64,000 nt of DNA, taken from assembly GCA_037043455.1 (NCBI GenBank), contig JAWPHD010000284.1, forward strand, positions 434,001 to 498,000, given 5' to 3'. Both the position numbers and the translations under genes were made by a program. Positions 3,035 to 31,258 of the stretch are shown in pieces. Position 1 is the stretch's first letter. Each line of letters opens with the position of its first letter. The stretch is from Cyrtodaria siliqua. Its lineage: Eukaryota > Mollusca > Bivalvia > Adapedonta > Hiatellidae. Below the pieces are notes generated by a model. That model ran no database searches. It worked only from the letters and a program-made list of their open reading frames with translations, and was not told the origin of the DNA.

Positions 3035-3091
3035 CTGATAGAAAAAGCAGAAGCAAGAGAAAAAGAAAGGTTAAAGGAAGAAGCTAGAAAG
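3035..3091 (+). CDS. PRPF40: PRPF40 exon (charged helix between FF domains)
   Basis: Acceptor ttacag precedes 3035 and donor gtatat follows 3091. The exon is 57 nt, phase 0 to 0, and codes LIEKAEAREKERLKEEARK. It joins the next exon in frame. Confidence 0.85.
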
Positions 3092-6000
3092 GTATATCTC
3101 CTCAGTATTTTTTCAATATATATTAGAAAGATAAATATTCATTTTAAGTTAGGAGTCCTGCAAACAATACATCATGACTGAAAACTAATGATCCCTGCAA
3201 ACAAAGTTTGAGGGAGTCGGTTGTCCGGCCGGTTGATTGGCCGGTCGATCTGTTCAGAATCTTGTATGGACCATTTCTTCATAACCCCTTGATAAATTTT
3301 CACAAAACTATGAGAAGCATCAGTATGAACTGGAAATGTGCATAACATCAGTCTCGTTCCGGTTCGATTTTTGACCGTGTAATGGCCCTTTAAATAGGTT
3401 CACACGCAAATCTTGTCTGCGCTATTTCTCCATTTTCACCAAACTTTGTGAAAAGCATCAGTATAAAGTGGAGATGCGCATGTCGTCGGTACACATTTGC
3501 ACCCCTATTAATCACCTTCAGTGGCAGTTTTAGTTTTGCCAAGGAGCAAGTTTGTTACCAGTGTGATTTACAGCATTTTTGTCTCGCCGTCATAGAAGGT
3601 GGAGAGAAAAAGGTGTCACTTTGCAGTTGCTGTGGGGCGGCGACAACATTTATATTCAAGTTTTACGTATATTCTTATATATTACATATTTGTCTGTGAT
3701 TTGTATAGGAAATACTGGGAATAGAAAAGCTATATCTACTCGTTTGTTCTACAAGGAAATATCTCTCAGTGGGAGATATTTCCCAGTACGGAACATTGCT
3801 CGGCCTTTTCCGTCAGTGGCGGGAATGCCAAATGACGTTCCGATTGTTTTACGGACGTCTTCGTCAGATTCCGCCACTAGGAAATAACGATTACGGAAAT
3901 TAACGAAGAGTTCCGGTTCCATTTGTTTTGTTTGGATGACGTAACGTCGTCTTGGATGACGTAACATCATCTTGGCGTTCTCGTGCAGACTGGTGTAAAA
4001 AGGCATGAATCATTAGAAATATTAATAAAATATCATTTTAAATTATGTAATATATAGTTTAATAACCAGTGTTTTTGAGATACTGAAAATGTCTCCCGAG
4101 GTAGAGAAATGGCCCTGATATAAGAACGAGTGCAGAGCACTCGTTCTTATATAGGGGCCATTTCTCTACCTCGGGAGATATTTACCTTATCTCAAAAACA
4201 CTGGTTATTAAACTCTATATCTTCAACACTATTTATTCAAATTCAGTCAAACTTTGTATATGTTTTCAATATCATCAAGGGCTCCCAGATTGTTACCATA
4301 ACTCTGGTTCCATAGTTTAATTTCTTCTCTGCAATATAGGCGAGACACTTACTGCAGTCAGGCAGGCAGACTTCTTTCTTGTTAGTCTATATATGACTTG
4401 ACTGTACCAATCACATTCACAAGGACTTTAAGTCAATTACCACCAGTGGATTCGCATTTTGATTTCTTGCGGAAATGCTTCATTAACCAAAAAATCATGA
4501 CGTAATTCATGTGAACGATGTTAGTTTCCAATAGTGTAAAATGTGTTAAAAATGGGTGGAGCAATTCTACTATAGACGCACACAATTAACACGTCGCCAG
4601 TACTTAGATATCTCAGACCTATTGTTGATGTTGGAGTATATTGACAATAGGTTATATTATAATACAGCTGCACGTGCTTTATTATACTGTTACACATGCT
4701 ATTGTTGTCTGAGGTATGGTATTGGTTTGATTGGTTAAAATGGATAAATGATTGACAACTGGCGACATGTTAATTGTTTTTGAAGTGCTGAAAATATAGT
4801 TTTCAGTATTTCAAAATTACTATAAAGTTTTTTAAAATATATACCTGTATGTTAATGATGAAGCATTCATCTGTGTGTTTTCAGCTGCGTAAGTTAGAAA
4901 CTTCATTCAAGAACATGCTTGCTGATTCGTCCCCAGCCATAGAACAGGATACAAAGTGGGAAGATGTAAGTCTTGAAGCTGTTGTTGACATGTAACACGG
5001 AGTACATCTAGAAAAATCTAAATTTAAACAAATGTTCCAGCTCATGATGAAAATGTAATTTCAATCAAAATCTGGTGTTAGCACTGTGTGTCCAGGTTTT
5101 AGATTTTAAATCACCATAGATTTTGAATAAAAGCCAGTTTAAAATGCTGAAATAAACCCTGGTGTGTCACCTATAATAGCACATATTACTGTACAGAATG
5201 AATTTCCTTGTAAATGGGGAGTCACTTAAAGTAATTAACCCGTCAAATAACGGCGAAATTACACTACAAAATCGTTTATCAAAACTCTATCCAGTTTTTT
5301 AGGTCGTATAATAATGCCCATTAAAAGTATGTTTTTTTTCATGTGTTATTAAATTACCGGTGATAAAAGATGTGTAAAATGAAAGTCAGCACTCCAGTTT
5401 TGGGGTTTGGTCTGGCTGGTTAAAGCCGTTATTATTGTGTCTATAGAGTTTGGATTCTAAAAATATGTTAAGTTATACGTAAACCTGGTCGTCAGTAGGT
5501 TTAGAAACGCTGTACATGTTTTGTAAAAGTTGGCTGTCATTAGCAGGATAGCTGCTTTAAAGGCTCGTTTATTATGTTTTTGCCTTTTAGGGTAGAAAAT
5601 AGGTACCGGTAATATTGTGCTTGCATTTCTAGGAATGCTGGCTGTAGTTATTATAAGTACAGTCGAACCTCGAAAGCTCGAACACCGGTAATTCGAATAC
5701 CATCGGTAACTCGAACACATTTTCCGGTCCCGACACAACTCCTATATAAATCAATGTAATTTAACCTCGATTATTCGAATATAATTTCTCGAATACCCCG
5801 GCTCGTTCGAATAATTTTTACACTCCGAAGATTCATTTTTGTGCGAATTTAAACCTCGCTTAATCGAAGGTGATGATCCGTTGCCATGCGACGTCGGCCA
5901 TATTAATTGTAATCGACAAGTTTGTATTTGTTTGTAGCAAGTTCGATCATAGTGCGAAAACAGATAAAGTTGATTGTTAAAGGTGCGATCATTTATGATT

Positions 6001-9000
6001 GAAAAGCAATAATAGACAGATAAAATTTATGTTTAGTGACTTCGTTTACTGTTAATTACGTATCGTAATTAACAGTAAACGAAGTCACTAAACATAAATT
6101 AAACACGGTTGATTTTCTAATTAAATAATGTACCGAAACCAGTCTTACATTGTTCTCATTATTCAGACCTCCGGGTTGTATGTTAAAATCTATTAGTGCG
6201 ATATTTCTTTAAATAAATGATAAAACAAACACATTATTGCAGTTTTTCTTGTATTTTCAGTGTAACAATTACATGTTATATATCCTTTATGAGGTTCAAA
6301 CAAACATGCATGAACATAAAAAACATACCGAGAACGATACATCAGGTACACAAGTAACACTATTTCGGGTGGTACACAAATTCGGATAGATATTTTGTTT
6401 TTTACCGTTACCTCGATGCCTCGAAGCCACCGATAGCTCGAACATATCCCTATGGTCCCGCTGACTTCGAGCTATCGAGGTTCGACTGTATTATAATTTA
6501 CAGTAAACCATTACATATTTCCTGTGTATCAAATAAACATGATTATATGTAATCATATTCTTTCCAGCACCACCATGTTTCAATCATTAATTATTCCAGG
6601 TGCGTTCACGGTTCGAAAATGAAAGTGCATTTGATGCAATTACCCTGGAGTCTGAGCGAATGAGACTGTTCAAAGAATACTTGGTAGCTGTAGAAGAGAT
6701 GTGCTTGCATCGACACAAGAAAAAGAAGTCTAAAAAACACAAAAGTCGCAGGTCCAGATCTAGATCTCGTTCTGTGAGTATGTTTATGCTCCCCAGAAAC
6801 ATTTGGTTGGGTGGAGCTTTAATAGCCACTTTGTTCTTCATCCATCTTCATTCCGTATCTGATCTTTGACTTTTCAAACAGGGTTTTGATATTTTACAGA
6901 AATAATTATGTCAGCAAGACAATTGCGACTTCTTACTTATATGGAAAGGATGCTTGGGATTGCATTTGAGGTCACTGGGGTCAAGGTCAGTGTTTCTTAA
7001 AATAAAAAAATGGTTTCTGGGCAATAACTTTTATAGTTAGGAATGAGATATTGAAACAAAACTTGGTGTATAGGTATCTGATATGGAAAAGAAGCTTGGG
7101 ATTGCATTTCAGATCACTTGGGTCAATGTCAAGTCACTGTTACTGAAAAAGGTTAATGGGCTATAACTTTAGTTAGGAATGAGATATTGCAACGATACTT
7201 TATGTGTAGCTGAGATAATTTTTTAGACTGCTTAGTCTTATACATTTATTATCCAACAATATTTCAGACTGTTTATTCTGAAGAAGAATCTTCATCACGT
7301 CATAAATCAAAGAAAAGGAAAAAGTCCAGATCACGGTCACCCAGTTACCATTCCCCATCAGGTGAGTTCCCAGTTTTATCACGGTCACCCAGTTACCATT
7401 CCCCATTAGGTGAGTTCCCAGTTTTATCACGGTCACCCAGTTACCATTCCCCATCAGGTGAGTTCACAGTTTTATCACGGTCACCCAGTTACCATTCCCC
7501 ATCAGGTGAGTTCCCAGTTTTATCACGGTCACCCAGTAACCATTCCCCATCAGGTGAGTTCCCAGTTTTATCACGGTCACCCAGTTACCATTCCCCATCA
7601 GGTGAGTTCCCAGTTTTACATCTTCGAAATATGGTTTGGAATTGTCAGCAAATGTTAGATATTACAGGCACCAGTCCATTTAAGTACTCTAAAATATGCA
7701 TTCCATCTGCTTTTAAAAAAATGCATTTCCAATTTAGCACTCAGCATTTGGCTTTTGTATGTTATGTTAACAATTGATAAAAATCTATAGTTCCTCCAAA
7801 TGAATGCCTTTTAATCAATCGCTGCTATCATCTGCATTATATTTGGATTTGCACTTACCATAAGTGTATCTGCTTGTTTTGGAATGCATTTATAGTGATT
7901 AAGGGGTTTGTCTCAGTTTTTCGAAGTGGAATTGGGCATATATAACTGTTGGGTTAAGAGGATTTTACTGAATGAAAATGTAAATCACCTGTCTGTTTAA
8001 GTAACATGAGCAGGGTATTTAAAGTGCTGTTCTCAAAGTTGTGACTACGATGAGTGCTTTAACTGTTTTAAATCTATAAAATAAACAGTATAATAAACAC
8101 TGAGCGATTAAAATACTGATATTAAAATGAAATGTGTATATATGGATTAAATTTTGAGTTTGATCTCTCATTGCAGTATGAAAAATCATAAGGGCGGTTT
8201 AAAGTTAACGAGAAACCCTTCAATCTTCATGCTGTTTAGACTACCTACTGTTTTTCTTACCTCGATTAAGGATCGCAATCAGTCCTTAAGTTATTTTATT
8301 ACTTCCAAAACTGTCGGGTTTTTTTCTGAAAAAAACTGTAATGTTTGGTTCTAGCACAGACCTAATAACAAATAGATTGGACACTACAAAAATTATCCAA
8401 ATTTCACGTGGCACAGTGCGAAAATTTCACAACTTTAAACACACATATCATGAAGAGTTTTATAGATACAAGTTTCATTCATGCCAAATCCCATCACACA
8501 TTTAATATTCTTTCCAATGATAGTATTTTGCTTTCTCTTACATTTAGAGCAAAAAAGGAGATTGACAGAAACTTTGACTATGTCAAAACCTTAATTTTTA
8601 AAAGAAAAGCGAAAAATGTTGACATTTTTAACTTTAAACATCTTTTTATACAATTTGTTATTTTGAAAATAAACATAAATTATTATAATCCCATTTTGCT
8701 ATTCACTTTGAATCTTTTGAATGTATTTTTATCAAAATCAGTGAATAACTGAGAGAGAAGATAGAATGAAAAGTTAAGGTGCCATGTGATATTTTGATTA
8801 CTTCATTGGTTAAGATAGGAAGTTTCCTATCTGTTTATTAATATGTCTGTGGTTCTAGCTCTCTTTGACATATTCAACATGTTTTAGTCTTCATGTGTTA
8901 AACTAACAATCCTTATTATATCCCCGCTTTTACAAAGTGAAGTGGTGGCTGTATTTGTGAAAGCCCCGCTATATAGGAATCACGCTGTCCGTAACGTCAC

Positions 9001-12000
9001 GTCGCGTCGCGTAACACATTTTTATTACTTGCATTTCTCAAACAGTTTTGAATAGGTTGTTCCCAAACGTCATATACTCATAACAACTGATGACCTTATG
9101 TCCCTCTACATCACCCATTGTTGATTGCTTAATTTATAACAGAATTATGGCCCTTTGTTTGACTTAGAATAAAAAAGCGGTATTCATCACCTTCAGTGAT
9201 AGAGGTGCGCAGTATTACCGGTAAACCGATGAACACCGGTATTAAGCTTGGGCGGTACGTTAGGGCCCGTACCGGTACTTCGGCTATTTCCATGACCGAG
9301 AAATGTACGGATATTACTGAAGAAAACGGATGTTTTACTGCGCTAATTTAAATTTGCTTACATGCGAATATAACACATTTAAACACATGAATAACCACAA
9401 TCTTATTTTGATAAAAATTGCATGTTTTATACTGAAAATCTAAAGCGAAAGACATTTAGACCAAAAATATAATAAATCATGAATCATTGTCTCTTACGCG
9501 CTTATCGCATACATCATAGCAGCATCAAGCATGCACATGTAACAATAAACATGATAAATGAGAAGGACCTATCAGCCAGAAGGACCACCAGTTTTCAAAC
9601 TTCCTACTTAAATAACTAGTGTTGAACCCTTGTTATCATGGTTATGAAGCCAATGAGCCTCGTGGCATTTTGATCTTGTCCTGCATTGTCTTAAATAAAA
9701 AATTTCAACCACAAAGCTTACACGGTATACCGTGGTACGTACCGCGTCATTCGCTAAAATACCGTGGTATATCGCGGTACTTTTATTCTCGTGGTACCCA
9801 ACTCTATTCAATGATAGTTCTAGTTAAACCTGCATTATGAACACATGAAATTGAGAGTTTATTGTTATCTCTTTGTTTAAGGCATGGTATTCACTCTCAA
9901 GGTCAAAGTTCAAGGTTATAGAACATTGAAATAGTGAAACAAGACGTATTCATTTTTTGTGTCGTCAATTGATTTTTGTTTACTTTTCATTTAATAGGTA
10001 TGTGAGGGTTGAGGGACCATCCCACAACACACATTGCTGTAAGGAACCTAGTTTTCCTTGACCTTTCTGTCAGCTAGGAAAATGTATTGCTATAATTTGC
10101 TGATTCTGTATATTTTTGACATTAAACAGACCATGATAGAGAGGAGAAATCCAAGTCTAAACACAAGAAGAAGTCCAAGAAGAGGAGGCACAAGGGGGTG
10201 AGTAGATACGGATGTTCAGATGTCCCCGTTTCTTTTTAGAATGCATGCCATCAGGGGTTAAGGACTGGTGGAACTGAGAAACAATGACCTTTTAAGACAA
10301 AGGACCATTTATTTCAGGTTTATATATGCTGAATTTGTAATAGGAGATTAAAAAGCGTGTTGTTTTTTTAAATTCGGGAAACGGCCTAGCACAATATTGA
10401 TATAGATTAATACGGGTTTATTTTCAGTGGGGGCATCTGTGTCTCATGGACACATTTCTAGTTTAATAATATGTGAGTGTATTTAAGATTCTTGATACAG
10501 GTGATTCCTTATTACCGTCCCCATCCCCCACCCTTCATCACAGCAACCTTGTGAATGAACAGACACCTGTTGGTTGAGACAACCTGTGACAACATAGTTG
10601 TTCATACCATTGTACCATTGAAAACTGGTTCAAACCAGCCAAATCAGATGGCTGCCGCAGCCATCTGATTTGGCTGGTTTGAACCAGTTTTCAAAAAAGA
10701 TAAAAAAAAATCCAAAAAAAAAAAAAAAGTTATCTTTTATTGCTGTTGATGTATATAAGCCAATAGTCATTCAGTCATATATACCATTTAAAGTACATAG
10801 ATTGTAATAGCTAAAAACAGAGCTGTAGATAATTTTTGACTGCAAAGAGTTTTTGTTTTTTCTAATCTGAATGAGTAAAAGGAACTCCTTCTGAGTAAAC
10901 CGTTGCATTAAACAGTTCATGCTTTCAAACATTTTAAAAGAAACAAAAATCCTAAGTAAATGGAAGTTGCCTGTAAGTAAAAAAAAAAGAAACACTTAAT
11001 ATTAGACACATGCTTGAAACAATTTTCATCATGTCAATCTGGAACAAACTGTTCTACAGAACAATACATACAAATATTATACCTCATTTGCATATTCCAC
11101 TCTTTCTTTAATGTGACGTCATCTGGTCCATAAAGTTGCATATTGACCGGGCGCCCAGTCTGATAGCTATATTAACGGACGTGTGAAAAAAAAGACGTCA
11201 AAATAAATCATAAAACGTATTGATTTAATTTGTTGGTCAGATTCGGTATAATATAACAAATAATGTATGGTGCTTCGGTCCATATGAAGTTTATGAACTG
11301 GGTAGTCCATAAACTTGCATATGGACCTCAGCACCATACATTTTCTGTTAAATATAATTCTCATGATTTTTAAAAGTTATGAGTTTTTGTAGTAAGTTGA
11401 TGAGTAAAGGTACTCACAATTTAAAAAAACTGAGGGGTTTTATAAAAAAAGGTATGAGTAAAATAATCAAAAACTCAGCTTTTCTGTTAAGATCTGTAAA
11501 AATCAGACCTGTGGAATTCATTAATATCAACTGTTGACTTTAGGACGTTCTATCCGGATCAATCTGGTTTTGTTGTCAAAAGTCTTGTTTGGAGGCTAAA
11601 AGTAAAATCAGATCATTATGTAGGGTTAAAGGTCATGCGTATACTATATTTGTTCTAAAGAGACACATGACAATCTTTAAGTTTTTATCAAGCATTCAAA
11701 TTAGCATTTTGATCAATTAATCCAGTATCATTTTGATTTTAAACCTGCATGTATGTAATTATGTCTTCCCCACATTGTGGAGGGGAGACAAATTGTATTT
11801 GTGCTGTCTGTGTCTGTCATCTGGTGTCTGTTGTCTGTATGTCACAAACTTTGTCCGGACGTTCTCCTGAACCCTTGACCGGATTTCAATGAAACTTTGC
11901 AGGAATGATCAGTACCAAGCCTAGTTGTGCATATCTTCGCTGTGTTCGGGTTGAATGATTTTTGGCGGAGTTATGGCCTTTTAAAGGTTTTGTTACACAA

Positions 12001-15000: not shown

Positions 15001-16807
15001 TTGATTCGACATTAAACATGGCTGCCAGTGGCCATCTTTGTTTACATAGAGTTATATAGTAAAAACTTGTAGCGGCTACTCCTCTGAAACTTCACAGGAA
15101 TGCTGATATAGCTATCAAAACCTATCAGTAAAGCTTCAAGGTCGTTGACCTGTTATTTTTTGGAGGGTTGGAGGGGGTCAGTTTGGCAAAGGTCAAAGCC
15201 ACCATGAACTCATATCGAAATATCTGTTCATGAACAATAACTTTGAAACCATAATACCCACACTCACTCATGAAACTTGCTCTAGGTGAGAGGAGGAACC
15301 CTATTGTTTTGGGGTTAGTAGGTCAAAGGTCAAGATCACTATGGTCTTGTATGGAAATACACATTTTGCTAAATAACTTCATGTTTCACAAGTGCATTGC
15401 TTTTGTTGAAAGAAAGAACCTTATTGTTTTGGTGGTCAGAGGGCTAAAGGTCAAGGTCACTAACTTTTTAAAGCGTAATACAGACCAACATGAAGCATTT
15501 TTTGTTAGAAGGCCGAAGGTCAAGGTCATATTGACCTTACACTTAGGAAATGTTTTTTAACATAATAACCATGATAACCCAACGAGAGTGATTGATATAA
15601 GCCATAGGCTTGTTTCACAAACATTTAAAATAAGTAGGTTTAACCAAAACAAACAAAAATAACCTAAATGGGCGTATATTTTACTATAGGATTAAATATA
15701 TTAATGGTGCAATATAATCAGCAGTAAGTAATATGCAAAATCAATTTGCTTTATACTATTCTTAAAACTAGTATTTATGATTTACACATGCAAGTTATGT
15801 GAAAAACTACGGGACTAACAGAATCAAGATTGTCACATGTCCCTTTAAAATGCAGACAAAAAATTAATCTTCTAAAGGTTATTGACAGCATTTAGTCGCG
15901 TTTGATTTGTACTTGATTATGACACCATTAATGGTAATCCACATCAGATGGACTATAAGGTGGCAAAACAATTTCTCATGTGATTTTATATATTGCCTTT
16001 GCATATTCAAAACACTTCCAGAAGAAGTAATTAATTATTGACTGGGAAAACCAAATACTGTCTGCTGTTGCAAAGGTGGGGGCGAAATGTGGTGGAAAGT
16101 CAACACATATCCTTCAGGGGCGTGAAACACTTAAGATCTTAATAGAATTGTGGAATCTACCACCTTTTAATTCAGATAATTGGCAAGCACACTTGTGCTT
16201 GTAAGTCTTTCCTGAGAATGATTTATTAGATCTGCATTTCAAGTGACGTTCCTCATGTTTTGCCCTATATTTTCATTTTGAGTCACTCACTCAGCGGTCA
16301 AAAGTTGAAATCTATGTTTACTAAAAACAACCTCTAGTTTTAATTACGGTACTTGGATGCTAAGCAGTTTGGAATAAAAGTACAAAACCGAGATAATGTT
16401 CTCTTAGTAATTTGTATTACCCCTTGAAGGCATTCTTTACAGCACAGTATATTGATGCTGCCAGTTCCACTTTACTGGGATGCACTATAGATACATTAAG
16501 CGAGATGTTACAGTTAAATATTTGTTTGAATAGTGTTTTGTGTCATTTTTAGCACATATTAGGCCATATGTGATGGTCAGAAATAGCCTAAAATGTGTGG
16601 GAAATGACGTAAAACACCATTCAACCAACCAATCTTTAGTTCTGTTTTTTTTTAAGGAACATAAAGCAGAATATAACTGACAGTATGTTATGAATAATTA
16701 TTCATCTGTATTTTCAGGGCGGGTATTCGTCAGGAAGTGATGTTAGTGAAGGGGAGCTGGAAAAACAACGACGTCTTCTGCTACAGCAGCTGGAGGCTCA
16801 CCAGTGA
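3035..16807 (+). CDS. PRPF40: Pre-mRNA-processing factor 40 homologue (PRPF40A/B), C-terminal exons; gene starts upstream of window
   Basis: PRPF40 is a U1 snRNP-associated nuclear splicing factor with WW domains, then FF domains, then a basic RS-like tail. Six exons join in phase: 3035-3091, 4885-4965, 6600-6773, 7268-7361, 10130-10197 and 16718-16807 (564 nt, 187 residues plus stop). All are flanked by AG and GT. Visible parts are a charged helix (EKAEAREKERLKEEARK), a linker with WED before the last FF domain, that FF domain (VRSRFENESAFDAITLESER then LFKEYL), a lysine/RS-rich tail, and the characteristic C-terminus GSDVSEGELEKQRRLLLQQL followed by EAHQ and TGA. The end closely resembles the vertebrate SELSEGELEKRRRTLLEQL. 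WW domains and earlier FF domains must lie upstream. A or B cannot be assigned because invertebrates usually have one gene. The fourth exon ends in a minisatellite that repeats its splice donor. Confidence 0.92.
3188..3500. repeat. Dispersed intronic repeat, two diverged tandem units
   Basis: Two related units of about 150 bp share 'tttcaccaaactttgtgaaaa' -like and 'agcatcagtat' segments (near 3300-3350 and 3430-3480). The type occurs widely through this window in diverged forms. No coding potential was seen. Confidence 0.5.
3755..3783. repeat. Short hairpin
   Basis: GGAAATATCTC and its reverse complement flank a short loop. It could be the end of a small inverted-repeat element related to the palindrome at 4053. 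Confidence 0.45.
4053..4218. repeat. Near-perfect palindrome, about 80-bp arms with 3-nt loop
   Basis: The left arm runs from about 4053 to 4133 and the right from 4137 to 4218, with a loop AGA at 4134-4136. The inner arm pair is GAGTGC/GCACTC; the outer ends are TAGTTTAATAACCAGTG and its complement. It is likely a palindromic MITE inside the PRPF40 intron. No clear target-site duplication was identified. Confidence 0.7.
4885..4965 (+). CDS. PRPF40: PRPF40 exon (linker before last FF domain)
   Basis: Acceptor ttttcag and donor gtaagt bound 81 nt in phase 0. It codes LRKLETSFKNMLADSSPAIE followed by QDTKWED. The TKWED run matches the D-x-x-WED motif just before the last FF domain in PRPF40 proteins. 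Confidence 0.88.
5660..6488. mobile_element. Non-autonomous pogo/Tigger-like DNA transposon (MITE)
   Basis: Terminal inverted repeats begin CAGTCGAACCTCGAAAGCTC on the left; the right end read in reverse starts CAGTCGAACCTCGATAGCTC. Both ends are flanked by TA (5658-5659 and 6489-6490), the target site of Tc1/mariner/pogo elements. TTCGAA-rich subterminal repeats continue inward on both sides. No transposase ORF remains in the 829 bp. Confidence 0.85.
6024..6100. repeat. Perfect 37-bp-arm palindrome inside the pogo-like MITE
   Basis: The left arm is 6024-6060, the loop TAT is 6061-6063 and the right arm is 6064-6100. The arms are exact reverse complements. It lies off-centre within the larger element and may be a separate hairpin or the start of a nested insertion. 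Confidence 0.85.
6600..6773 (+). CDS. PRPF40: PRPF40 exon (last FF domain plus K/RS tail)
   Basis: Acceptor ttccag and donor gtgagt bound 174 nt in phase 0. The first 35 residues are an FF domain with both phenylalanine positions (RFENESAF and LFKEYL). The exon then becomes basic, HRHKKKKSKKHKSRRSRSRS. Confidence 0.92.
6930..7205. repeat. Two diverged intronic tandem units
   Basis: Two units of about 130 bp each carry GGATTGCATTT, TCACT-GGGTCAA, ATAACTTT and GGAATGAGATATTG. They lie between two PRPF40 exons. Confidence 0.6.
7268..7361 (+). CDS. PRPF40: PRPF40 exon (RS-like tail), 3' end within a minisatellite
   Basis: Acceptor atttcag precedes 7268. The first good donor (GTGAGT) is at 7362, giving 94 nt, phase 0 to 1. 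It codes TVYSEEESSSRHKSKKRKKS followed by RSRSPSYHSPS and one base of the next codon. Five further identical donors lie downstream at 48-bp steps, and the frame stays open through all of them, so longer forms of the exon are possible. Confidence 0.85.
7331..7618 (+). repeat. 48-bp coding minisatellite, six copies, each with a 5' splice site
   Basis: Copies start at 7331, 7379, 7427, 7475, 7523 and 7571. Each reads in the PRPF40 frame as SRSPSYHSPSGEFPVL (16 residues) and contains CAG|GTGAGT or TAG|GTGAGT. Copies differ at only one or two bases: TTA for TCA in copy 2, ACA for CCA in copy 3, AAC for TAC in copy 5. No copy introduces a stop. After the last copy the frame reads on until a TGA near 7777. 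Confidence 0.93.
8000..8930. other. PRPF40 intron without recognised features
   Basis: AT-rich sequence. A 114-codon ORF at 8408-8752 is lysine/isoleucine/asparagine-rich with no motif or splice context and looks like chance. Nothing else was recognised. Confidence 0.5.
9200..9806. mobile_element. hAT-like non-autonomous DNA transposon
   Basis: Ends are TAGAGGTGCGC on the left and CCAACTCTA on the right (reverse TAGAGTTGGG), resembling hAT termini. An 8-bp duplication flanks it: TTCAGTGA at 9192-9199 and TTCAATGA at 9807-9814, 7 of 8 identical. Subterminal regions are rich in ACCGGT/GGTACC-type palindromes. No transposase ORF is present in the 607 bp. Confidence 0.75.
10130..10197 (+). CDS. 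PRPF40: PRPF40 exon (lysine/arginine-rich tail)
   Basis: Acceptor attaaacag and donor gtgagt bound 68 nt. It starts in phase 1 and ends in phase 0, exactly compatible with the exon ending at 7361. It codes DHDREEKSKSKHKKKSKKRR followed by HKG, matching the KKHKKKSKKRRHKS block of vertebrate PRPF40. Confidence 0.9.
10618..10694. repeat. Perfect palindrome, 38-bp arms around one base
   Basis: Arms 10618-10655 and 10657-10694 are exact reverse complements around C10656. The centre reads GATGGCTGCCGCAGCCATC. It is immediately followed by A-rich sequence. Confidence 0.85.
11244..11361. repeat. Inverted repeat (small palindromic element)
   Basis: Arms share AATGTATGGTGC, GGTCCATATG and AAGTTTATG in opposite orientation, best conserved over 11262-11343. 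A related GGTCCATAAAGTTGCATAT segment occurs just upstream near 11126. Confidence 0.6.
11764..12113. repeat. Dispersed repeat bounded by GGGGAGAC ends
   Basis: It begins CTTCCCCACATTGTGGAGGG and ends CCCTGTGGGGGAGAC. The interior has two diverged copies of 'ttgtccgga...ctcctga...catttcaatgaa' followed by 'gtttttggcgga(t)ttatggcc'-like text. Confidence 0.5.
12160..13135. repeat. Tandem array of about 170-bp units (family A)
   Basis: Four or more diverged units share ATGGTCCTTTACCAAGTTTG, TTCAAATGGTGACCCTGGGG, GGCCCCGCCCC, CATAGACTTATATAGG and GCAAGAGCCAGAGGTTTAAT. The array ends with GGTGATCGATTTAGGGCCCT and CTTGTTTTT. The same units, in the same order and with the same terminal motif, recur at 61225-63293. 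Confidence 0.8.
13136..15680. repeat. Composite tandem array with inverted TATACGCCC termini (family B)
   Basis: The left end is TATACGCCCAATTG (about 13137) and the right end is AAATGGGCGTATA (about 15667-15679), giving short inverted termini. Inside are at least seven diverged units of about 150 bp with AACTTCGAAACCATAACACC, CTACACTCATGAAACTTCAT, AGGTACATTGCCCTAGG and GGTCAAAGGTCAAGGTCA. These are followed by units with TTGTAGCGACTACT and CATGGCTGCCAG that also occur at 35545-36950. A SINE is nested at 14415-14655. Confidence 0.7.
14415..14655 (-). mobile_element. SINE, minus orientation, with 12-bp target-site duplication
   Basis: The exact duplication ACATGATGTTGG flanks it at 14403-14414 and 14656-14667. 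Read on the minus strand it begins near GCTATCTCGCTCGCAT and ends with GCGCCTTAAAACCCCAATTC and AATTCAATT. A second plus-strand copy lies at 33222-33457. An unoccupied version of the host repeat is present near 35814-35827 (ACATGATGTTGGACC). Confidence 0.88.
15681..16717. other. Last PRPF40 intron, 3' part
   Basis: No exon was recognised. A SINE-like tail (GACGTAAAACACCATTCAAC) lies near 16600-16630. The rest is AT-rich and unassigned. Confidence 0.45.
16718..16807 (+). CDS. PRPF40: PRPF40 terminal coding exon
   Basis: Acceptor tattttcag precedes 16718. It is phase 0, with 29 codons plus TGA at 16805-16807. The SEGELEKQRRLLLQQL core is the conserved C-terminal signature of PRPF40. Confidence 0.95.
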   Translation, partial: GGYSSGSDVSEGELEKQRRLLLQQLEAHQ

Positions 16808-19682: not shown

Positions 19683-20506
19683 TCAAGAGCCGACACTAGA
19701 TTCAAAGTGCTTGGCCAACTTTGGAATAACTTCCTCAAGGACTTTTTTAGAATTTGTTATTCTAGGTAACCCATCACTGTTTGCTGCTGTGAAAGAATCA
19801 TGAAGTCCATCTTCCCCTGACCGCTTGAAGATCACCTTCAAATGGTTCAAGTTTAACCCTGATCCAGCAATATTTTCTGCAGTTGGGCGCTTCATTATAC
19901 CATGGATTATCAAGGTGTCTAAAGATCTAATGTTGGAAGACTTTGCAGTATTAAACTGTAATGAATGTTTCATTGCAACAGGGGAAAAACTAAAAGGTAA
20001 ACGCTCTGACTCATCACAAAGTGCAAGAAGTTTTCCAAGGGCCTCGACATCAGCTTCAGCATTGTGAGCATCATACGAAATGCCAAGATGCTGTTTGACT
20101 AAGTCTTCCTGTTTGTGAGACTGATCTGGGAATTTCTTCTTAAACAATGGCAGACTGTCAATTAAACCAAATACACATTGTAAAAAGACTTCCATGGTTT
20201 TGTTTTTATCTATAGCGGTCATCAATACAGGAAAGTCAAACCTGCGGCCATTATGCGCAACAAGAATAACGTTAGAGAACTTCTGCAACCAATTATATAA
20301 TTTGACAATTGCACTATCTATCGTTTCACAGACCACAGGTTGTCCATTCACAGACATGTCACCGTCATTGTTCACATATATCCCAGTAACTCTTTGTGCC
20401 TCAGCAGCAATTGGTACACAAGGCTTTGTGTAAACTGAAAATTTACTCCCTGTCTTCATCTCTGCTGCCGCGATTTGGGTGATGTGTGGCATCACAGAAT
20501 AACGAA
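19683..20506 (-). CDS. Transposase-exonuclease exon 7 (exonuclease motifs II and III, stop)
   Basis: Acceptor tttttcag-type (reverse of 20507-20515) and stop TGA at 19685-19683. It begins with two bases completing the codon split from the previous exon and continues RYSVMPHITQIAAAEM. It holds VAHNGRRFDFP and DAHNAEADVEAL, then about 115 residues of unrecognised C-terminal tail. Confidence 0.9.
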
Positions 20507-23500
20507 CTGAAAAGAAAGATTATTATGTTGCACAATTTTGATAATAAATGTCAATTATACAAATGTATTATTAATTTCCCTGATAAAAGATATATCCGAG
20601 CCCCAGTAGCTCAGTTGGTAGCGACGATGGCTGTCAATCCAGGGTTTGTGTGTTCGAACCCAATCTCGGCCAACATTCTTTCCTACATTTGACAAAAGTC
20701 ACTGTGACAAGCGTCATTTGTCTTTCACCAATGGGCTTACAGTCTATGTGGAAAAGGAGTCAGTTGCTTGGAAAGTATGTTATGTGGAGTACTGGTGTGA
20801 GCAAACCAGGAAACATATGAGTAGGTCAACTGGCCGCCGGGATATGACTGAAAAATTGTTGAAAACTGCGTTAAACCCCAATAAATCAATCAAACCATAA
20901 TAATGATCTCTCCTTCTTCAGCCCTTTTCCCATTTATAAAATATTATAGATATTCTATAAAAAACATGCATTTTTTTATACTCATCAGTAAACACAGAAG
21001 TTTTCAAGCTAGACTGTCAATCCCAAACTTGCTGGTTATAATATCATAAGACTGGGTGATATAAATTCTTACTAAGATCTGTTGTTTCCAGATCAATGGC
21101 AATAAATGTCGGCTCTCCACTACCCACTTTCACTGGTTTGAAGTTGCCTCGTGCAATTGCGTCTGGTAGCTTCTCGATGTCCACTTCTGTGGAATGACCA
21201 ACTCCTGTAATTGATACATTGAAATGTAAATTTGACTGAAGACTAACAATTGTTTGTATTGATATCTAAAGAACACCAGATAAAAGCTTTATAAAAAAGC
21301 ATGTTTCTGAAATCGCACAACAAGCCCCGGTAGCTCAATCGGTAGCGACGCAGGCTGTCAATCCAGGGGTTGTGAGTTCGAATCCCAGCACGGCCAACAT
21401 TCTTTCGAACGTTTGACTGAATGGGCTGTTTAACAGTCTATGTGGAAAAGCAGCCAGTTGCTTGGAAAGTATGTTGTGTGGTGTACTGGTGTGGGAAAAC
21501 CAGGAAATGCATGAGTAGGTAAACTGTCCGCCGTGATATGACTGAAAAAATGTTGAAAACGGCATTAAACCCCAATTAATCAATCAACCTAAACTGCACA
21601 TTTCAGCCTAGGCACTGATAAATGACTTCATATATAGGTCAACTTCTTTTCACGTTCATAATCAAAATGTTATGAATTACATCATCTGATCCACTTATAA
21701 CAAAACCAGTTGTTTAGATCTAAATCAAGCAATCCATTTCTGATTGCAATGTCCTACCTGACTCGTAGGATACACCCTCTAAGGCTTCCATTGCACCCTG
21801 GCTGGTAGCACGTTCTTGTTTAAGTATCAGCCTACGACGCTTTACAGATGGAAGGCTCTGAGACTGCTGCTTCTGCAAACGGCGCTTCTGACATTTGTCC
21901 GCATATTTCACAGTATACTTCCCAGGCGACAGACCAAGTTTCATATTCATCTGAAGATTGAAACATAATTGTGCATGCTCCAGATCATGTTAGATGTTTG
22001 ACCATCACTCAAGAACAGTACTTTTCAATATGAATGTCTACATTTCTATGTATATTAAACAATCTTTTTACATAAATAATACATTAACATTAGTTCTGTA
22101 TTTGCTTAAAATATGTTTTGGAATTAAGATTAATTATCCCCTCGGTTACGAAGTAAGCGAGAAAGGGATATAGTAACGGGACCGTCCGTATGTATGTGTG
22201 TCCGTCCGTCCTTCCGTCCGTAACAAACCTTGTCATCACTCTACACTAACCATTTCTTGACAGATCTTAACCAAACTTGGTATAAAGTAAGTATATGGTA
22301 ACATCTTGAAGCCTATTGATTTTCAAGGTCATAGGTCAAAGGTCAAGCCCAGCCGAGGGGATGCATCCGCTTTGCGGTGCCCTTGTTTTATCTTGCATCA
22401 GCAGAATTGGATTTAGTGTCTATTGTGTTTTTTAAACAAGAGGCATTCTAAATAGAATGCACAATTCTTATATGTCTAATTAGAAACGTGATCAACATAC
22501 CATATCACATGAACACCTGCAGGAAACATCAGGTAAACCATGAACTGATAAAAGAAGAACATAAAAATAAACAAACTTCAAACAATAGAAAATAAAACAA
22601 AACCCTGAACATGAAAAGAAGCAATAATAAAACCTGAAAAAATCAAAAAGAACTGTATGAACATGATAACAACCGTTCATAGAATAGAAACAAAAACAAA
22701 ACTGCAAACAAAAAGCCAATGGCTTAGTTCCAACAAGCAAACATTTGTTAACGCTTCCCTCATATAGTCGCTTTCTGACGCCTCTGCAGCATATCGCTTT
22801 TTGAAAACATAGCGACAAAAAAAGAAATTGCTCAAAACAAGCAATAATTTCTCCTTTTGCCACAATGTTTTCCACTTGAAGTCAATGGTTATCCATTTAA
22901 TTATAGAGATTTTCTATTTGTTGACAAAATATGTTCAAAGTCTTCTGCTGCAGATTTGTTGTATGTGGGAAAGGGTTAAACAACATAAGATGAAAATACT
23001 TAGCAAAACTATTTCAACAATTCAAAGAAGCGTCAGGGTTCACCATTGCTTCAAGAAATTAGAATCAGTGATAGTGTATCCTTTTATATCATCTCTACAT
23101 GATGAGCCCTGAATGTTTTGAACCATATAACATGCTTAAACTTACATTTGGTATGTAGTGTCTTCCCTCATTGATGAACGCAGCCGTGGCGTGTACTCTG
23201 TAGTCAAGTGACTTGGTATTCCCATAGTGGTGTGACTTCGGTGCTCTGAGACTAACCTCTTTGTTCGCATGTTCACACTGTTGACTTGAACCCAAGTCTG
23301 CGTATTGATCAGCTCTGGTTACCAAGGGATCGAAAATTTTCTGGAGTTCATGGCGAAGGGTTTCATCTGTTAATGCTCTTCTGTAAGGCAGACTATGATG
23401 AATATACATTTCACTTGGTGTCCTCTTGAACACACAGAACCTGTCACTGCACAAAGAGTGGTCACCAAACTGATGAGGTACTAAAGCTTTCAAGTTATCA

Positions 23501-25683
23501 CGAAGAGCCTCTTTGTCCCCTTGGTTTCGTGCAAATGCGTATTTCAAACATTTTTCTAAATGCAAAATTACCATTTTACTCAATTTTACACCTTTTTTGT
23601 AGTGTAATGCATACAGACTTTTTCCTACATTTTTCACCACGTGATTGCGATCATATCGTTTTTTCATGTGAATATTTCTGTTGTTCCTCAGTCTCGCAAT
23701 AAGAGTATTGTCTCCATCACCTTCCAGATATTCAACCGGCGTTCCTTCATCAGCTAACTGAACAACCCCCTTTTCTCCACTGACACTTTCCATCAAACGT
23801 GCACTTCCAGTATGGTTCCGGACACACTTGTGTGGTCTTACAGCATCACTAGGTCTATTTCGTCGCCACCAGTTGCACGTTCCACAGGTCCTATGGCTGA
23901 TGATAGATTTCACGACTTTCTTACCATACTTTGCCTTGCTCATAAGGAATGTGTGGGCTGTAAAAACAATAAACAGTGTATCAATAACTGTGCCCGAACC
24001 ATGTCATTTTTTGACATGCATACATTGGTTCTCAAAGTGAAAAATGTGGTTGTCCAAATAGCAAACTTTCTGTTCTATATGCATTCAATCAAACTCTTAT
24101 GGATATAAATACTGTGACCAAGTTTTATTCAAATTGCTCAAAAATTGTGAAGGTTAAAGTGTAAACAAACTCACTATGGACGACGGGGAACATTTAACAA
24201 TCCTTAAATCTCACCTTGCACTTTGTGCCAGTTGAGCTAAACAGAGAATCACTGTTAAACCTAACAGCTGTCATTGAGTAAGATACACTACAATTTGCCA
24301 TAATACTTACATGTCAAACTATCAAAGCCTTTTTTCTGCCAAGCAGTATCAATGGCGCATGACATTCCACTTTGTGTTCTACATGGGAACTTTCTGTCCA
24401 GACGTGTTCGGCTGGAGGAGCTGTTGGATACACAACGAATACTGCTAGTTGACTTCTTATAGGGGACTGGTTTTGGCCGGAAAGTATTTGCTGGTGTCCT
24501 TTGAAATATATAACAAAACATAACATATAACTATTTTTCTATGGAATTTGCTTGCTATAAATATAGTCAGTACAGCTTCATACATGTATGAACTATTTCT
24601 GGTCTGTAATGATAATATTTAGAAACTTCTTAGACTGAGATGATAACTGTGACCTAGTTTTTTTTACTGTACATGACCCATATTCAAACTTGGCCTACAT
24701 ATCACCAAGAAAAACATTCTGATAGTTACATCATGATCAAGTTAAAAATGTGGAGTGCTTACAAGATTTTCCTTCAATTTGACCTTTGATCCAAGGCTTT
24801 GACCTCATATAACCCAGTTTCAACTTGTCAAAGATTTGCCTGTAGAGTGTGAACAAGGCAATTGTTGACGAGGCACGACTGACCGACACTTGACGAAATG
24901 TGATCACAATAGCTAAAAATGATAAAAGGTTTTTACCTTGGGCTGGCATCTGCAGCAGATGTGGGAGTGTGAATACTGTTGTCATTCATGGCTGAAGCAC
25001 CAACGTCAACCTCTTCATCATCATCAGAGTCAACATCTGTCAATGCAGAATCATCATCAACACCAGGACGGTCTTCCAGTCGTAGTCTTTGAAATAAAAC
25101 AGAAGATAAATGTTCATTGTGTTTTACACTTCTATTTATTTATTGGGGTTTTACGCCATTTTCAACATTATTTCAGTTATATCACGGCAACAGTTCACTA
25201 ATTCATGATCCCTAGGTAAACAAACCAGTACTCTAAGGCTATAAAATAAAATATGCCTTGCCCAAGGACACTCCAACATGACCGACGTTTCCGAACTTTC
25301 GCGACTGGAGATCAAACCTGGGACTTCCGGTTTCAAATCCCCGAAACTAACCACTCGACCACAGCGGATTCCTTTTACACTATTTAGTGTAGGAACACAC
25401 TACATAAATTTATATTGGTGAAAGTCCTGACACATTTGGGTCTTTCATCTGCCTGTTCAGATTGCATCAATGCCTATCAACAATAGCAAGTTTTAGAAAC
25501 ACATATATTGCCATTGGTTACAGGCCTTTTTGTTAAATAACTTCTCATGAATATGAATATATTTCAATATTAATATACCTTAGAGAGGGAGATTCATCTG
25601 GAAGTGGGCACACTCCAAGCTCATTCACCAGTGAACCTTCCATGGACTGCTTGGCTTTTGTTGATTCTTGTGTAGCGATATCC
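19683..25683 (-). CDS. Mutator-like transposase fused to DEDDh 3'-5' exonuclease (seven exons, 5' end not found)
   Basis: Seven minus-strand exons join in phase: 25683-25579, 25086-24937, 24498-24311, 23957-23146, 21950-21758, 21204-21073 and 20506-19683, together 800 residues plus TGA. The first half matches the Mutator-like transposase domain I know from invertebrate proteins: AIDTAWQKKGFDSLTSHTF, a CGTCNWW...HKC metal-binding pattern, and EYLEGDGDNT. The C-terminal part is a DnaQ-type exonuclease with FIAIDLETTD, VAHNGRRFDFP and DAHNAEADVEAL, so all five D-E-D-H-D residues are present. The enzyme would trim DNA or RNA 3' ends; its link to transposition is inference. All seven exons lack stops and all splice sites fit, which argues for function or a very recent copy. 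Domesticated gene versus active element cannot be decided here. SINEs sit in three introns. Confidence 0.85.
20598..20893 (+). mobile_element. tRNA-derived SINE in intron of the transposase-exonuclease gene
   Basis: The head has TAGCTCAGTTGGTAG (A box) and GTTCGAACCC (B box). The body shares CAGTCTATGTGGAAAAG, CAGTTGCTTGGAAAGTATGT and CCGGGATATGACTGAAAAA with the copy at 21322. It ends TTAAACCCCAATAAATCAAT. Confidence 0.88.
21073..21204 (-). CDS. Transposase-exonuclease exon 6 (exonuclease motif I)
   Basis: Donor GTAAGA and acceptor caattacag bound 132 nt, entering with two bases and leaving with one. It codes VGHSTEVDIEKLPDAIARGN and then FIAIDLETTDL, the DxE motif of DEDDh exonucleases. 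Confidence 0.9.
21322..21592 (+). mobile_element. tRNA-derived SINE, second copy
   Basis: Head GCCCCGGTAGCTCAATCGGT with GTTCGAATCCC downstream. The tail is TTAAACCCCAATTAATCAAT. It is in the neighbouring intron and the same orientation as the copy at 20598. Confidence 0.88.
21758..21950 (-). CDS. Transposase-exonuclease exon 5 (basic linker)
   Basis: Acceptor caatcttcag and donor GTAGGA bound 193 nt, phase 0 to 1. It codes MNMKLGLSPGKYTVKYADKC then a strongly basic stretch KRRLQKQQSQSLPSVKRRRL that may be a nuclear localisation signal. It links the transposase and exonuclease parts. Confidence 0.85.
22138..22392. repeat. Dispersed repeat with CCCCTCGG...CCGAGGGG ends
   Basis: It starts ATCCCCTCGGTTACGAAGTA and ends CCGAGGGGATGCATCCGC followed by TTTGCGGTGCCCTTGTTTT. 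The interior has GTCCGTCCGTCCTTCCGTCC and a DR1-type AGGTCAAAGGTCA at 22333-22345. Confidence 0.6.
23146..23957 (-). CDS. Transposase-exonuclease exon 4 (main transposase exon)
   Basis: Acceptor gtttttacag and donor GTAAGT bound 812 nt. It enters completing a split serine codon (SHTFLMSKAKYGKK) and leaves in phase 0 after NEGRHYIPN. It holds CGTCNWWRRNRPSDAVRPHK then C, the EYLEGDGDNT acidic motif, and GSSQQCEHANKEVSLRAPKS, all familiar from Mutator-like proteins of cnidarians and molluscs. Confidence 0.9.
24311..24498 (-). CDS. Transposase-exonuclease exon 3
   Basis: Acceptor tttcaaag and donor GTAAGT bound 188 nt, with one base at each end of split codons. It codes TPANTFRPKPVPYKKSTSSI and ends MSCAIDTAWQKKGFDSLT, the start of the transposase core. 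Confidence 0.85.
24937..25086 (-). CDS. Transposase-exonuclease exon 2 (acidic region)
   Basis: Acceptor tttcaaag and donor GTAAAA bound 150 nt. It codes LRLEDRPGVDDDSALTDVDS then DDDEEVDV, an acidic disordered stretch. Its phases agree with both neighbours. Confidence 0.78.
25131..25372 (-). mobile_element. tRNA-derived SINE, minus orientation, 9-bp target-site duplication
   Basis: TTTTACACT flanks it at 25122-25130 and 25373-25381. On the minus strand the head is GCTGTGGTCGAGTGGTTAG (tRNA-like A box) with GTTTGATCTCC following, and the tail is GCGTAAAACCCCAATAAATA. It lies in the intron between exons 2 and 1, in the same orientation as the gene. Confidence 0.85.
25579..25683 (-). CDS. Transposase-exonuclease first visible exon
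   Basis: Acceptor ctgttacag and donor GTATAT bound 105 nt. It codes DIATQESTKAKQSMEGSLVN then ELGVCPLPDESPSL and two bases of a split arginine codon. Having an acceptor, it is not the 5' exon; none was found further upstream, where repeats dominate. Confidence 0.75.
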
Positions 25684-28420: not shown

Positions 28421-28636
28421 AACGACATTGTTGTAGCCTTGTTTTCTGATGGTATATACTAGCTATAAATTTATCCGACAGCTTTTGTAATGTATACATT
28501 AGTATATGACCTGAACACCTAAAAAGAGTTTGGATAAACAGTTTTGCAGTGTAATTTTGCCTTTGATTGACCTTGACAACATCTTAAAATTTGTTTTATA
28601 TTCTGATACGAGTAATGTTTTTAATTGTTATTTCAG

Positions 28637-31258
28637 GGACGGTCTGGAGATGTAAAGTTAAAAAGATCGCAAAAGATTAGATTAGGTTGGATACATTATT
28701 ACCAGTCCCGATATAAGTCAAAAGAAGGATTTAAGCAAGTGACTTTTAGAAATGGGGGTGGTGTCAGAGAGTTTCCAGTACCATCCTTAGATATGACTGT
28801 GCAAGAAATTGTCTCTGAAGCAACAAAACGCTTTTTTCCAAATGGAACTTCATCAGTGAACGGCAACATTCAAGACTTGTCTTCTGTTGGTCTAACCGAC
28901 CATGCACAGCAGGATATAGAATGTTTCAAGGACACAAACGGAGATGAATGTGACTTCGCGAAATATTTAAAAAGTCATGGCTTGTATTCAAGTAAAACCA
29001 CACTGTTTTTAAAAACTGTAGGAAAAAAAGAAATATTAACATACGCAGGAGAAACAGTTGATGATGTTGACGCAGAAAAGAACCAACCAGAAGTCGCGCC
29101 TATTGATGCTACTGCTGCTAAATCAGCATCAGATAAAGCAGAAAACAATGAAGCACAAGTACCAGCAGTCGCGCCTGTAGATGCTACTGCTGCTAAATCA
29201 GCATCAGATAAAGCAGAAAACAATGAAGCACTAGTACCGGCAGTCGCGCCTGTAGATGCTACTGCTGCTAAATCAGCATCAGATAAAGCAGAAAACAACA
29301 AAGCACAAGTACCAGCAGTCGCGCCTGTAGATGCTACTGCTGCTAAATCAGCATCAGCTAAAGCAGAAAACAATGAAGCACAAGTACCGGCAGTCGCGCC
29401 TATTGATGCTACTGCTGCTAAATCAGCATCAGATAAAGCAGAAAACAACGAAGCACAAGTACCGGCAGTCGCGCCTATTGATGCTACTGCTGCTAAATCA
29501 GCATCAGATAAAGCAGAAAACAACGAAGCACAAGTACCGGCAGTCGCGCCTATTGATGCTCCTGCTGCTAAATCAGCATCAGATAAAGCAGAAAACAACA
29601 AAGCACTAGTACCGGCAGTCGCGCCTATTGATGCTACTGCTGCTAAATCAGCATCAGATAAAGCAGAAAACAACGAAGCACTAGTACCAGCAGTCGCGCC
29701 TATTGATGCTACTGCTGCTAAATCAGCATCAGATGCAGCAGAAAAGAACCAAGGGTTTAAAGACAAAGACATTGCTAGTAATTGCAATTTGTATGCTGTA
29801 TTGAATGATGGAAGTGTATGTTTTAGAAAAAAAGAATTAAAGGTAGTTTATTGTGAACAAACAGTTTCATCTTTTTCGGAAGTAATGATGTCTAAGCACT
29901 GTTACTCAAGGGAAGCATGCAAGGACTTTACAACCATGAGGGACCCTGATGTTAATGATGCCGATAATTATGATCCCTTGGAAAATGGCTTCTTTGTAAA
30001 AAGGATACAAAAAAATGATAGAGTATTTCTAGACTATCAAGAAAATGATGAAATGCTCGGTACAGGAGATTATATAATAGCAAGTAAAAAAGGGAACTGT
30101 GATAGGAAATTGTTGGTATTTGGACCAGACGAAATTTATGGTTATGATGGCAATGAAATCACTTTAGGAGCTGTCATGAAGCATCATGGTAACACAAATG
30201 CCAAATACACTTGGTTTCAAGATGATGAAGCAATTGTTAGCGGACCAGATAAAAATATTATAAGCGTAAAAAGTACAGGTCTGTATATTTGTCAAGTTGA
30301 GCTAGACGCCATTATTGAGAAATCAGAGCCGGTCCAAATCATAAAGATTACACAAGAACCTAAAACAAACAGGGTCATTGAACAATCTGAAGCAATTACA
30401 TCCTTCTCCATTCCTCATGTGAATAAATCAGATTTCGAAACATCAGACAAGGAACTAGGGGAAGGAGGTTTTGGAAAAGTGTTCCAAGGGAAATGGAATG
30501 GAAGCGATGTTGCTGTGAAATTTATATCTTTAAAGAAACAGAGGGCACATATAAAAAAAATGGTAGAAAAGGAAATAAGTACACATGCACGGATAAGACA
30601 CACAAATATTGTGCAGTTAATGGCAATTGCTATTGACAAAGAGGGCATATATCTTTTGCAGGAGTATGTTAGAGGTCACAACATGGAAGACTGTGTTTTT
30701 GACATTGAAACGAAAAATCAAATGGATTTAGATCTGGGGAAAAAAATGTATGTGTCTAAGCAATGCCTACAAGCAGTAGCTTATCTCCATTCCAACAAAC
30801 CAACGATAATTCACAGGGACATTAAGCCTGCAAACATCTTAATAACTTCTGGATCTCTACTCACAAAACTTTGTGACCTGGGTGTGAGCAGGGTCAAGGC
30901 AGTTAGCAACGTGACATCCACTCGGTATGATCAACAGCCCGGAACACCATCTTATATGGCCCCAGAATGTCTCTTGGCTGCGCAGAGTGCCACGATTTTT
31001 TCGGATATATGGTCGACTGGAGTTACTCTTCTAGAATTCTTCACTGAAAAGGATGCATGGGGTCTGGATGATATACAACATGATGAGATGGACTTTGACA
31101 TTTTGCTTGAGATTAAAAATAAGATGAGGAAAAAGGAAAAACCTTTGGCTCTTTTGATGACACTTCCAGAAGTGTGTTCACTTCTTACAGACACATTGGA
31201 GTATAATACCCAAAGGCGCCCATTGGCTACGCAACTGTTGAAGTATTTTGAAAAATAG
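28637..31258 (+). CDS. TKL-like protein kinase with novel N-terminal domain, 25-residue repeats and Ig-like segment (terminal exon)
   Basis: Acceptor ttatttcag ends at 28636, so this is a 3' coding exon of 873 residues plus TAG; upstream exons were not found. Order: a domain of about 150 residues starting GRSGDVKLKRSQKIRLGWIH, which I associate with uncharacterised invertebrate proteins; eight full and one partial 25-residue repeats (residues 154-373); a linker; an Ig-like stretch with YTWFQDD and TGLYICQVEL (about 487-560); a protein kinase from about 600. Kinase motifs are LGEGGFGKVFQG, VAVKFI (Lys about 628), HRDIKPANI (Asp about 728), DLG in place of DFG (Asp about 747) and GTPSYMAPE (about 775). 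All catalytic residues are present, so activity is expected. TKL or receptor-interacting-kinase relatives are most likely. Its upstream region is fully repetitive. Confidence 0.88.
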   Translation, partial: GRSGDVKLKRSQKIRLGWIHYYQSRYKSKEGFKQVTFRNGGGVREFPVPSLDMTVQEIVSEATKRFFPNGTSSVNGNIQDLSSVGLTDHAQQDIECFKDTNGDECDFAKYLKSHGLYSSKTTLFLKTVGKKEILTYAGETVDDVDAEKNQPEVAPIDATAAKSASDKAENNEAQVPAVAPVDATAAKSASDKAENNEALVPAVAPVDATAAKSASDKAENNKAQVPAVAPVDATAAKSASAKAENNEAQVPAVAPIDATAAKSASDKAENNEAQVPAVAPIDATAAKSASDKAENNEAQVPAVAPIDAPAAKSASDKAENNKALVPAVAPIDATAAKSASDKAENNEALVPAVAPIDATAAKSASDAAEKNQGFKDKDIASNCNLYAVLNDGSVCFRKKELKVVYCEQTVSSFSEVMMSKHCYSREACKDFTTMRDPDVNDADNYDPLENGFFVKRIQKNDRVFLDYQENDEMLGTGDYIIASKKGNCDRKLLVFGPDEIYGYDGNEITLGAVMKHHGNTNAKYTWFQDDEAIVSGPDKNIISVKSTGLYICQVELDAIIEKSEPVQIIKITQEPKTNRVIEQSEAITSFSIPHVNKSDFETSDKELGEGGFGKVFQGKWNGSDVAVKFISLKKQRAHIKKMVEKEISTHARIRHTNIVQLMAIAIDKEGIYLLQEYVRGHNMEDCVFDIETKNQMDLDLGKKMYVSKQCLQAVAYLHSNKPTIIHRDIKPANILITSGSLLTKLCDLGVSRVKAVSNVTSTRYDQQPGTPSYMAPECLLAAQSATIFSDIWSTGVTLLEFFTEKDAWGLDDIQHDEMDFDILLEIKNKMRKKEKPLALLMTLPEVCSLLTDTLEYNTQRRPLATQLLKYFEK
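29096..29755 (+). repeat. 75-bp coding minisatellite, eight full copies plus one partial
   Basis: Copies start at 29096 and every 75 bp to 29621, with a partial ninth from 29696. Each codes APxDATAAKSASDKAENNEA followed by QVPAV, an Ala/Lys/Glu-rich, probably helical or disordered linker. Copies differ at a few sites (I/V, E/K, Q/L, T/P), all in frame. The antisense frame is also open throughout. Confidence 0.95.

Follow-up and report, generated by a model that had tools for sequence, protein, structure and literature searches.

What would a gene express if the boundary between one of its exons and the following intron, 5' splice site included, were repeated in tandem? We consider the question for a PRPF40 gene of the bivalve Cyrtodaria siliqua, in a window of 64,000 nucleotides (contig JAWPHD010000284.1, positions 434,001 to 498,000, forward strand) to which all positions below refer. 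The most likely answer is that the locus carries a young, nearly neutral array of donors that would add zero to five blocks to a tolerant protein tail.

Positions 7331-7618 hold six tandem 48-bp copies at the end of a PRPF40 exon, a region that TRF reports as 7330-7618 (period 48, 6.0 copies, 97% matches, score 557). The consensus unit joins 31 bases of exon end, TCACGGTCACCCAGTTACCATTCCCCATCAG, to 17 bases of intron start, GTGAGTTCCCAGTTTTA. Copies 1, 4 and 6 have the same sequence, and copies 2, 3 and 5 carry one private substitution each (Table 1); because the copies differ at just three of 288 bases, the array looks young. With a slash for the splice site, the donor reads CAG/GTGAGT in five of the six copies and TAG/GTGAGT in the second. 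The first-pass annotation was right to the base about the six copies, each with its exon end and donor, as TRF and the alignment of the copies agree, and wrong in treating the six donors as fully equal. The left edge of the array reads ...CCAGA/TCACGG and the right edge ...TTTTA/CATCTT, with one base common at the joint, which is what plain tandem duplication could leave. Chance similarity as the origin of the array was ruled out by the TRF score, the copy alignment and motif shuffles.

By homology, the host gene is a PRPF40 of the bivalve type, nearest to bivalve proteins, in agreement with the gene assignment made earlier. The joined exons of the window match Pfam FF (E 7.5e-11), as the last FF domain of the gene, and their best match in PDB is 2cqn, formin-binding protein 3 (E 3.9e-16), which is presumably human PRPF40A. 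Among the matches listed, the best full-length relatives are P0021 (75% identity over 99%) and then named bivalve PRPF40 proteins, those named being from Mya arenaria, Mercenaria mercenaria, Mactra antiquata and Dreissena polymorpha. Searching the contig with P0021 by tblastn gave collinear matches from about -22.7 kb to 16.8 kb in window coordinates, among them two N-terminal stretches at -22666 and -19220 (87.5% and 83.7% identity) and stretches ahead of the last FF domain. P0021 carries the Pfam label PF00397, which we take to be WW, and both N-terminal stretches are called WW domains on this basis. The gene also has, by alignment and tblastn, the RS-like tail ending in SEGELEKxRRxLLxQL that its relatives have. 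The array exon and the shared downstream exon do not appear in the tblastn rows of P0021 and both rest on protein alignment; the former was missed because it is short and RS-rich. Two WW domains near the N terminus and six FF domains are given as the hallmarks of PRPF40 in a passage of PMC11079029.

Table 1. Features of the PRPF40 locus in window positions; the coordinate of a donor is the first base of the intron.
Feature	Position	Strand	Basis or remark
PRPF40 coding exon (LIEKAEAREKERLKEEARK)	3035-3091	+	bivalve PRPF40 homology; boundaries by eye
PRPF40 coding exon, start of last FF domain	4885-4965	+	Pfam FF, PDB 2cqn, tblastn
PRPF40 coding exon completing the FF domain and holding the first RS stretch	6600-6773	+	Pfam, PDB, tblastn
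Array exon ending at donor 1, 94 nt	7268-7361	+	aligned to bivalve PRPF40
Copy 1	7331-7378	+	donor 7362
Copy 2	7379-7426	+	donor 7410, TAG/GTGAGT; C>T at 7407
Copy 3	7427-7474	+	donor 7458; C>A at 7466
Copy 4	7475-7522	+	donor 7506
Copy 5	7523-7570	+	donor 7554; T>A at 7538
Copy 6	7571-7618	+	donor 7602; CATCTTCG... behind copy 6 is intron
Read-through frame behind array	7619-7777	+	open for 52 codons, then TGA
Shared downstream exon (DHDREEKSKSKHKKKSKKRRHKG)	10130-10197	+	aligned to bivalve PRPF40; in frame with six donors
Last coding exon (GGYSSGSDVSEGELEKQRRLLLQQLEAHQ, stop)	16718-16807	+	tblastn, 92.9% identity to P0021 over 16718-16801

Joining each donor to the two exons that follow (10130-10197 and 16718-16807) yields six in-frame messages with the terminal stop only. 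Two further claims of the first-pass annotation, an open frame taking zero to five blocks and six donors compatible with one downstream exon, are borne out by these messages. From donor 1 to donor 6 each step adds 48 nt to the array exon, which is 94 nt long at the first and 334 nt at the last, the intron shortens from 2768 to 2528 nt, and zero to five blocks of 16 residues are predicted to be added, so that one PRPF40 gene may encode proteins of as many as six lengths. The zero-block form reads ...KKSRSRSPSYHSPS/DHDREEKSKSKHKKKSKKRRHKG..., and if the blocks are translated, peptides from GEFPVLSRSPSYHSPS would occur. The array had also been described as one repeated, RS-like coding sequence. 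The blocks are in fact not all alike (variants S>L, P>T and Y>N occur); their SRSPSYHSPS portion is indeed RS-like, with one SRS per block, and the remaining GEFPVL portion is taken as former intron, 17 of the 48 bases being assigned to it because relatives lack the block. Should the intron be retained, the read-through frame behind the array is a possible alternative C terminus; an open frame of at least its length arose in 0.033 of 5000 Markov sequences.

The block, sought as GEFxV, is present in none of the 140 relatives' proteins fetched, which comprise 20 from a first protein search and the best 120 of 624 matches from a second. Both anchors of the tail were located in 105 of the 140, the others being fragments, having other ends or having been missed by the script; 36 of the fetched relatives bear a mollusc name, and a large share are from birds. 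Since all 140 lack it, the block is taken as derived, and on this comparison the zero-block protein looks ancestral. Its absence would mean either that the array is newer than the split from the closest relative, at 75% identity, or that it was lost or is not annotated there. The zero-block form aligns across the junction without a gap to P0021, P0023 (Mercenaria) and P0024 (Mactra); P0022 (Mya) and P0025 (Dreissena) have one residue less. Five of the 140, all of them predicted Mytilus proteins (P0042, P0077, P0080, P0094 and P0107), have a 17-residue insert at the array junction, other predicted Mytilus proteins (P0032, P0033, P0034 and P0040) are without it, and two named oyster proteins, also predicted (P0113 and P0119), are longer in this stretch. 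P0028, a partial predicted PRPF40 of Mya, passes from SRSPSY directly to GGYSSG without the residues of the post-array exon.

A protein search with the five-block form retrieved five proteins (P0141-P0145, E 1.7e-24 to 1.1e-15), all labelled PF00498, which we take to be FHA. The three of them that were inspected have 15-residue repeats of the SQSPSYDSEGETTVL type in a protein otherwise unlike PRPF40. Despite their high scores we set these proteins aside as block-bearing kin, the repeats being probably convergent.

Given this anatomy, we consider it fairly probable that more than one donor of a duplicated array is spliced to position 10130, adding zero to five blocks, with a probably near-neutral effect and a variable copy number. 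A 48-bp segment astride the exon-intron boundary of PRPF40 would have been duplicated in tandem, leaving six copies with a strong 5' splice site each. U1 snRNP would settle on several of the copies, and in splicing the shared exon would be joined to several of the donors, so that up to five extra 16-residue blocks would enter the RS-like C-terminal tail. Because the tail would tolerate changes of length, the array is probably near neutral and its copy number probably variable.

The strength of the donors was scored with a simple matrix of approximate splice-site frequencies, which makes all donor and acceptor scores given here rough. Of the 3718 GT sites on the plus strand, donors 1 and 3-6 share the top score by this matrix, and donor 2 is ninth. 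The motif CAGGTRAGT occurs five times on the two strands of the window, always within the array, against 0.74 expected and with 0 of 100 shuffles reaching five, an excess that tells only of the rarity of the motif here because the copies derive from one another. Folding of the RNA of 7269-7640, compared with 100 shuffles, gave no sign of structure hiding or presenting the donors: the fold is weaker than those of the shuffles (z +2.03), all 100 of which are at least as stable.

These near-equal scores bear on the most serious alternative, which we nevertheless judge unlikely, namely that a single donor is used and the rest are bystanders. The donor would be either the first, leaving the array silent in the intron, or the sixth, making it wholly exonic. 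The zero-block form does match the proteins of relatives, and with the same nine bases in five of six donors, position alone could decide. Even where sites are equal, the choice between donors can be lopsided, and a single donor may account for almost all of the splicing. Full U1 occupancy favours the intron-proximal 5' site, and donor 6, giving the longest form, is therefore predicted in U1-rich cells. Yet equal donors 48 nt apart, in RNA without special folding, offer no sequence reason for exclusivity, and IFI6 uses more than one, according to a passage of PMC4526556. Multiple U1 occupancy of alternative 5' sites is described in part of PMC5389562 as altering the choice of site while leaving efficiency intact, unless the sites are too close.

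Donor motifs inside repeat units are scarce around this locus. Across 324 kb of the contig (positions 174001-498000, the whole being 522219 long), TRF gives 311 rows with a period of at least 10; [CA]AGGTRAGT lies inside the unit in one of them, this array, and the looser AGGTRAG in five; neighbours within 100 nt among the 29 donor-like sites on the plus strand of the same 324 kb occur only in the array. The figure of one in 311 is to be read with caution because, across the 2.88-Gb genome, donor motifs inside minisatellites are not rare: three CAGGTRAGT with short gaps gave 2302 matches (1036 + 1266) versus 894 (529 + 365) in a backward control. The matches listed, a part of the total, fall on three contigs, in large minisatellites with CAGGTAAGT in their units (C53 654138-655422, C83 34659-38328 and C89 134099-136522). 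The unusual feature would be the array's place at the end of a coding exon.

The window holds a second in-frame coding array, a minisatellite at 29092-29753 (75 bp, 8.8 copies) that adds 25-residue blocks within a plus-strand frame of 877 residues (28625-31258) whose product has a protein kinase domain (Pfam E 4.5e-50). Elsewhere the 7-mer AATGCGG is repeated in tandem at 43898-44228 (47 copies) and 44860-44924 (9 copies). Other frames match a reverse transcriptase, a Mutator-like transposase and an integrase core (1-1929, 23098-24003 and 42197-43375), the PML C-terminal domain and, weakly, an Exu RNase H-like domain (19686-20519, minus strand), and a galactose-3-O-sulfotransferase (59464-60789, plus strand).

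By the same matrix, the exon part of the unit reads as an acceptor too (CATYAG/GT). In four of the six copies the site TTACCATTCCCCATCAG/G scores 9.45, rank 22 of 3243 AG sites on the plus strand, and copies 2 and 5 score 7.53 (rank 90) and 8.14 (rank 59) in the same set; the array exon's own acceptor (7267) and the downstream acceptor score lower than the copies, at 4.44 and 4.20. When donor and acceptor scores are summed, the copies take ranks 1-5 and 8 among 459 AG/GT sites on both strands, and ten Markov runs of 128 kb produced no AG/GT site as good. At the end of the unit, by eye, a TTTAT lies 31 nt ahead of the end of the exon part and would suit as a branch site. By sequence, each copy is thus an acceptor directly followed by a donor, as in a ratchet point, and the copies may be excised as introns or act as ratchet points. 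Because the matrix is rough on the gene's real acceptors, ranking the six of this window between 29th and 585th, we treat this reading of the copies as a lead only.

As a rival to the use of several donors, and one that we find rather improbable, this reading would have the donor of one copy spliced to the CATCAG/ of a copy further along, in the manner of Rogers-type intron gain or recursive splicing; entire copies would then be lost either ahead of the main intron or separately from it. The summed ranks, the scores above that of the exon's own acceptor and the empty Markov runs argue for it. Splicing between adjacent copies, however, would require an intron of 48 nt, shorter than most animals allow, and the neighbouring intron upstream of the array exon (6774-7267) measures 494 nt. 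The pyrimidine stretch ahead of CATCAG is short, with another AG before it, and the rough matrix ranks three real acceptors (7267, 3034 and 10129) just 522nd, 567th and 585th. Introns across tandem AGGT copies have been published, as part of PMC4974935 records. Joining an upstream donor to a later copy as acceptor would restore AG/GTGAGT and finally give the same mRNA as the upstream donor; acceptor-like copies would therefore favour short forms with fewer blocks. As a jump from any donor to a later copy leaves the message of that donor, the acceptor reading predicts the opposite of a preference for donor 6. An extension, to which we give little credence, is a self-erasing array: six ratchet cassettes would add or delete 16-residue blocks, with heritable copy number setting the spread of isoforms, the ancestral form as default, and the level of PRPF40 or U1 shifting the balance.

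That assembly error expanded or collapsed the copy number is very improbable. In its favour, tandem copies are a usual site of such errors, the array was located at one place in the 2.88-Gb assembly, and a search of that assembly found no second haplotype or gene copy showing another copy number. The intron part before the array exon (about 6936-7210) is a dispersed, partly tandem repeat with 132 matches besides its own, from 40 of 4133 candidates scored, and it is for this reason that a wider query had only 40 of its 4133 candidates scored. The haplotype result consequently rests on the cleaner query of neighbouring exon sequence (6560-6840), which occurs at one place in the assembly (1 candidate, 1 scored). 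Against an error, the private substitutions in copies 2, 3 and 5 are not expected if one copy simply stuttered, an array of 288 bp would be small beside the usual long reads, and positions 6001-8000 contain no N.

Hardly credible is the proposal of the first-pass annotation that copy number could tune both U1 binding and the length of the RS tail, here extended to a control of the exon by PRPF40 itself by way of U1. The annotation correctly linked PRPF40 to U1: PRP-40 belongs to the U1 particle, and knockdown of PRPF40A alters splicing of its partner Luc7l (both from parts of PMC11463390), but nothing ties PRPF40 to its own exon, and with no block in 140 fetched relatives, few differences between the copies of a young array, and one SRS per block, such tuning is possible but unsupported.

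If several donors are used, as we think probable, the locus would offer a ladder made by nature, six 5' splice sites of nearly equal strength, 48 nt apart, in one exon, with the substitutions in three copies as sequence tags for telling donors apart. Such a ladder would let the effect of position alone on donor choice be measured in vivo, and would show whether tandem AG/GT copies serve as introns, a step needed by models of intron birth. A host gene for a U1-associated factor adds an angle of autoregulation and proves nothing. The points added here to the earlier annotation are the acceptor-like AG/GT copies, with their potential as introns or ratchet points, and the precedent of human IFI6.

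The unit of the IFI6 minisatellite is 12 bp long. In that gene (6-16, G1P3; Turri et al. 1995), whose units serve as alternative donors for several mRNAs and protein isoforms, two downstream repeat units act as donors and three mRNA species result, as described in a passage of PMC4526556. The likeness to PRPF40 lies in tandem minisatellite units with a donor each; PRPF40 differs as another gene in another animal, with a 48-bp unit, and in that the use of several donors is reported for IFI6 and here predicted from sequence. The literature on repeats at exon borders also includes a paper on the ABO gene. Introns are described as arising, too, when AGGT segments are duplicated in tandem (Rogers 1989; Hellsten 2011), and according to excerpts of PMC4974935, introns run across several copies in fission-yeast arrays of 24-bp units and a duplication in the potato RdRp gene spans an intron-exon boundary. 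The PRPF40 copies likewise hold AGGT, and so a donor and an acceptor, but the boundary that they span is on the donor side, any new intron is putative, and the segment, unlike that in the Rogers form, is not wholly exonic, with its 17 bases taken as former intron. Ratchet points are juxtaposed AG/GT sites, which in flies are found inside long introns and take in a cryptic exon, according to part of PMC8605326; the PRPF40 copies juxtapose acceptor and donor in the same way by sequence, but would form a tandem array beside an exon, in an intron of 2.5-2.8 kb. To judge from its predicted splice sites, the PRPF40 array belongs with IFI6; its 48-bp unit keeps the frame, has an acceptor score as well, and lies in the gene of a splicing factor.
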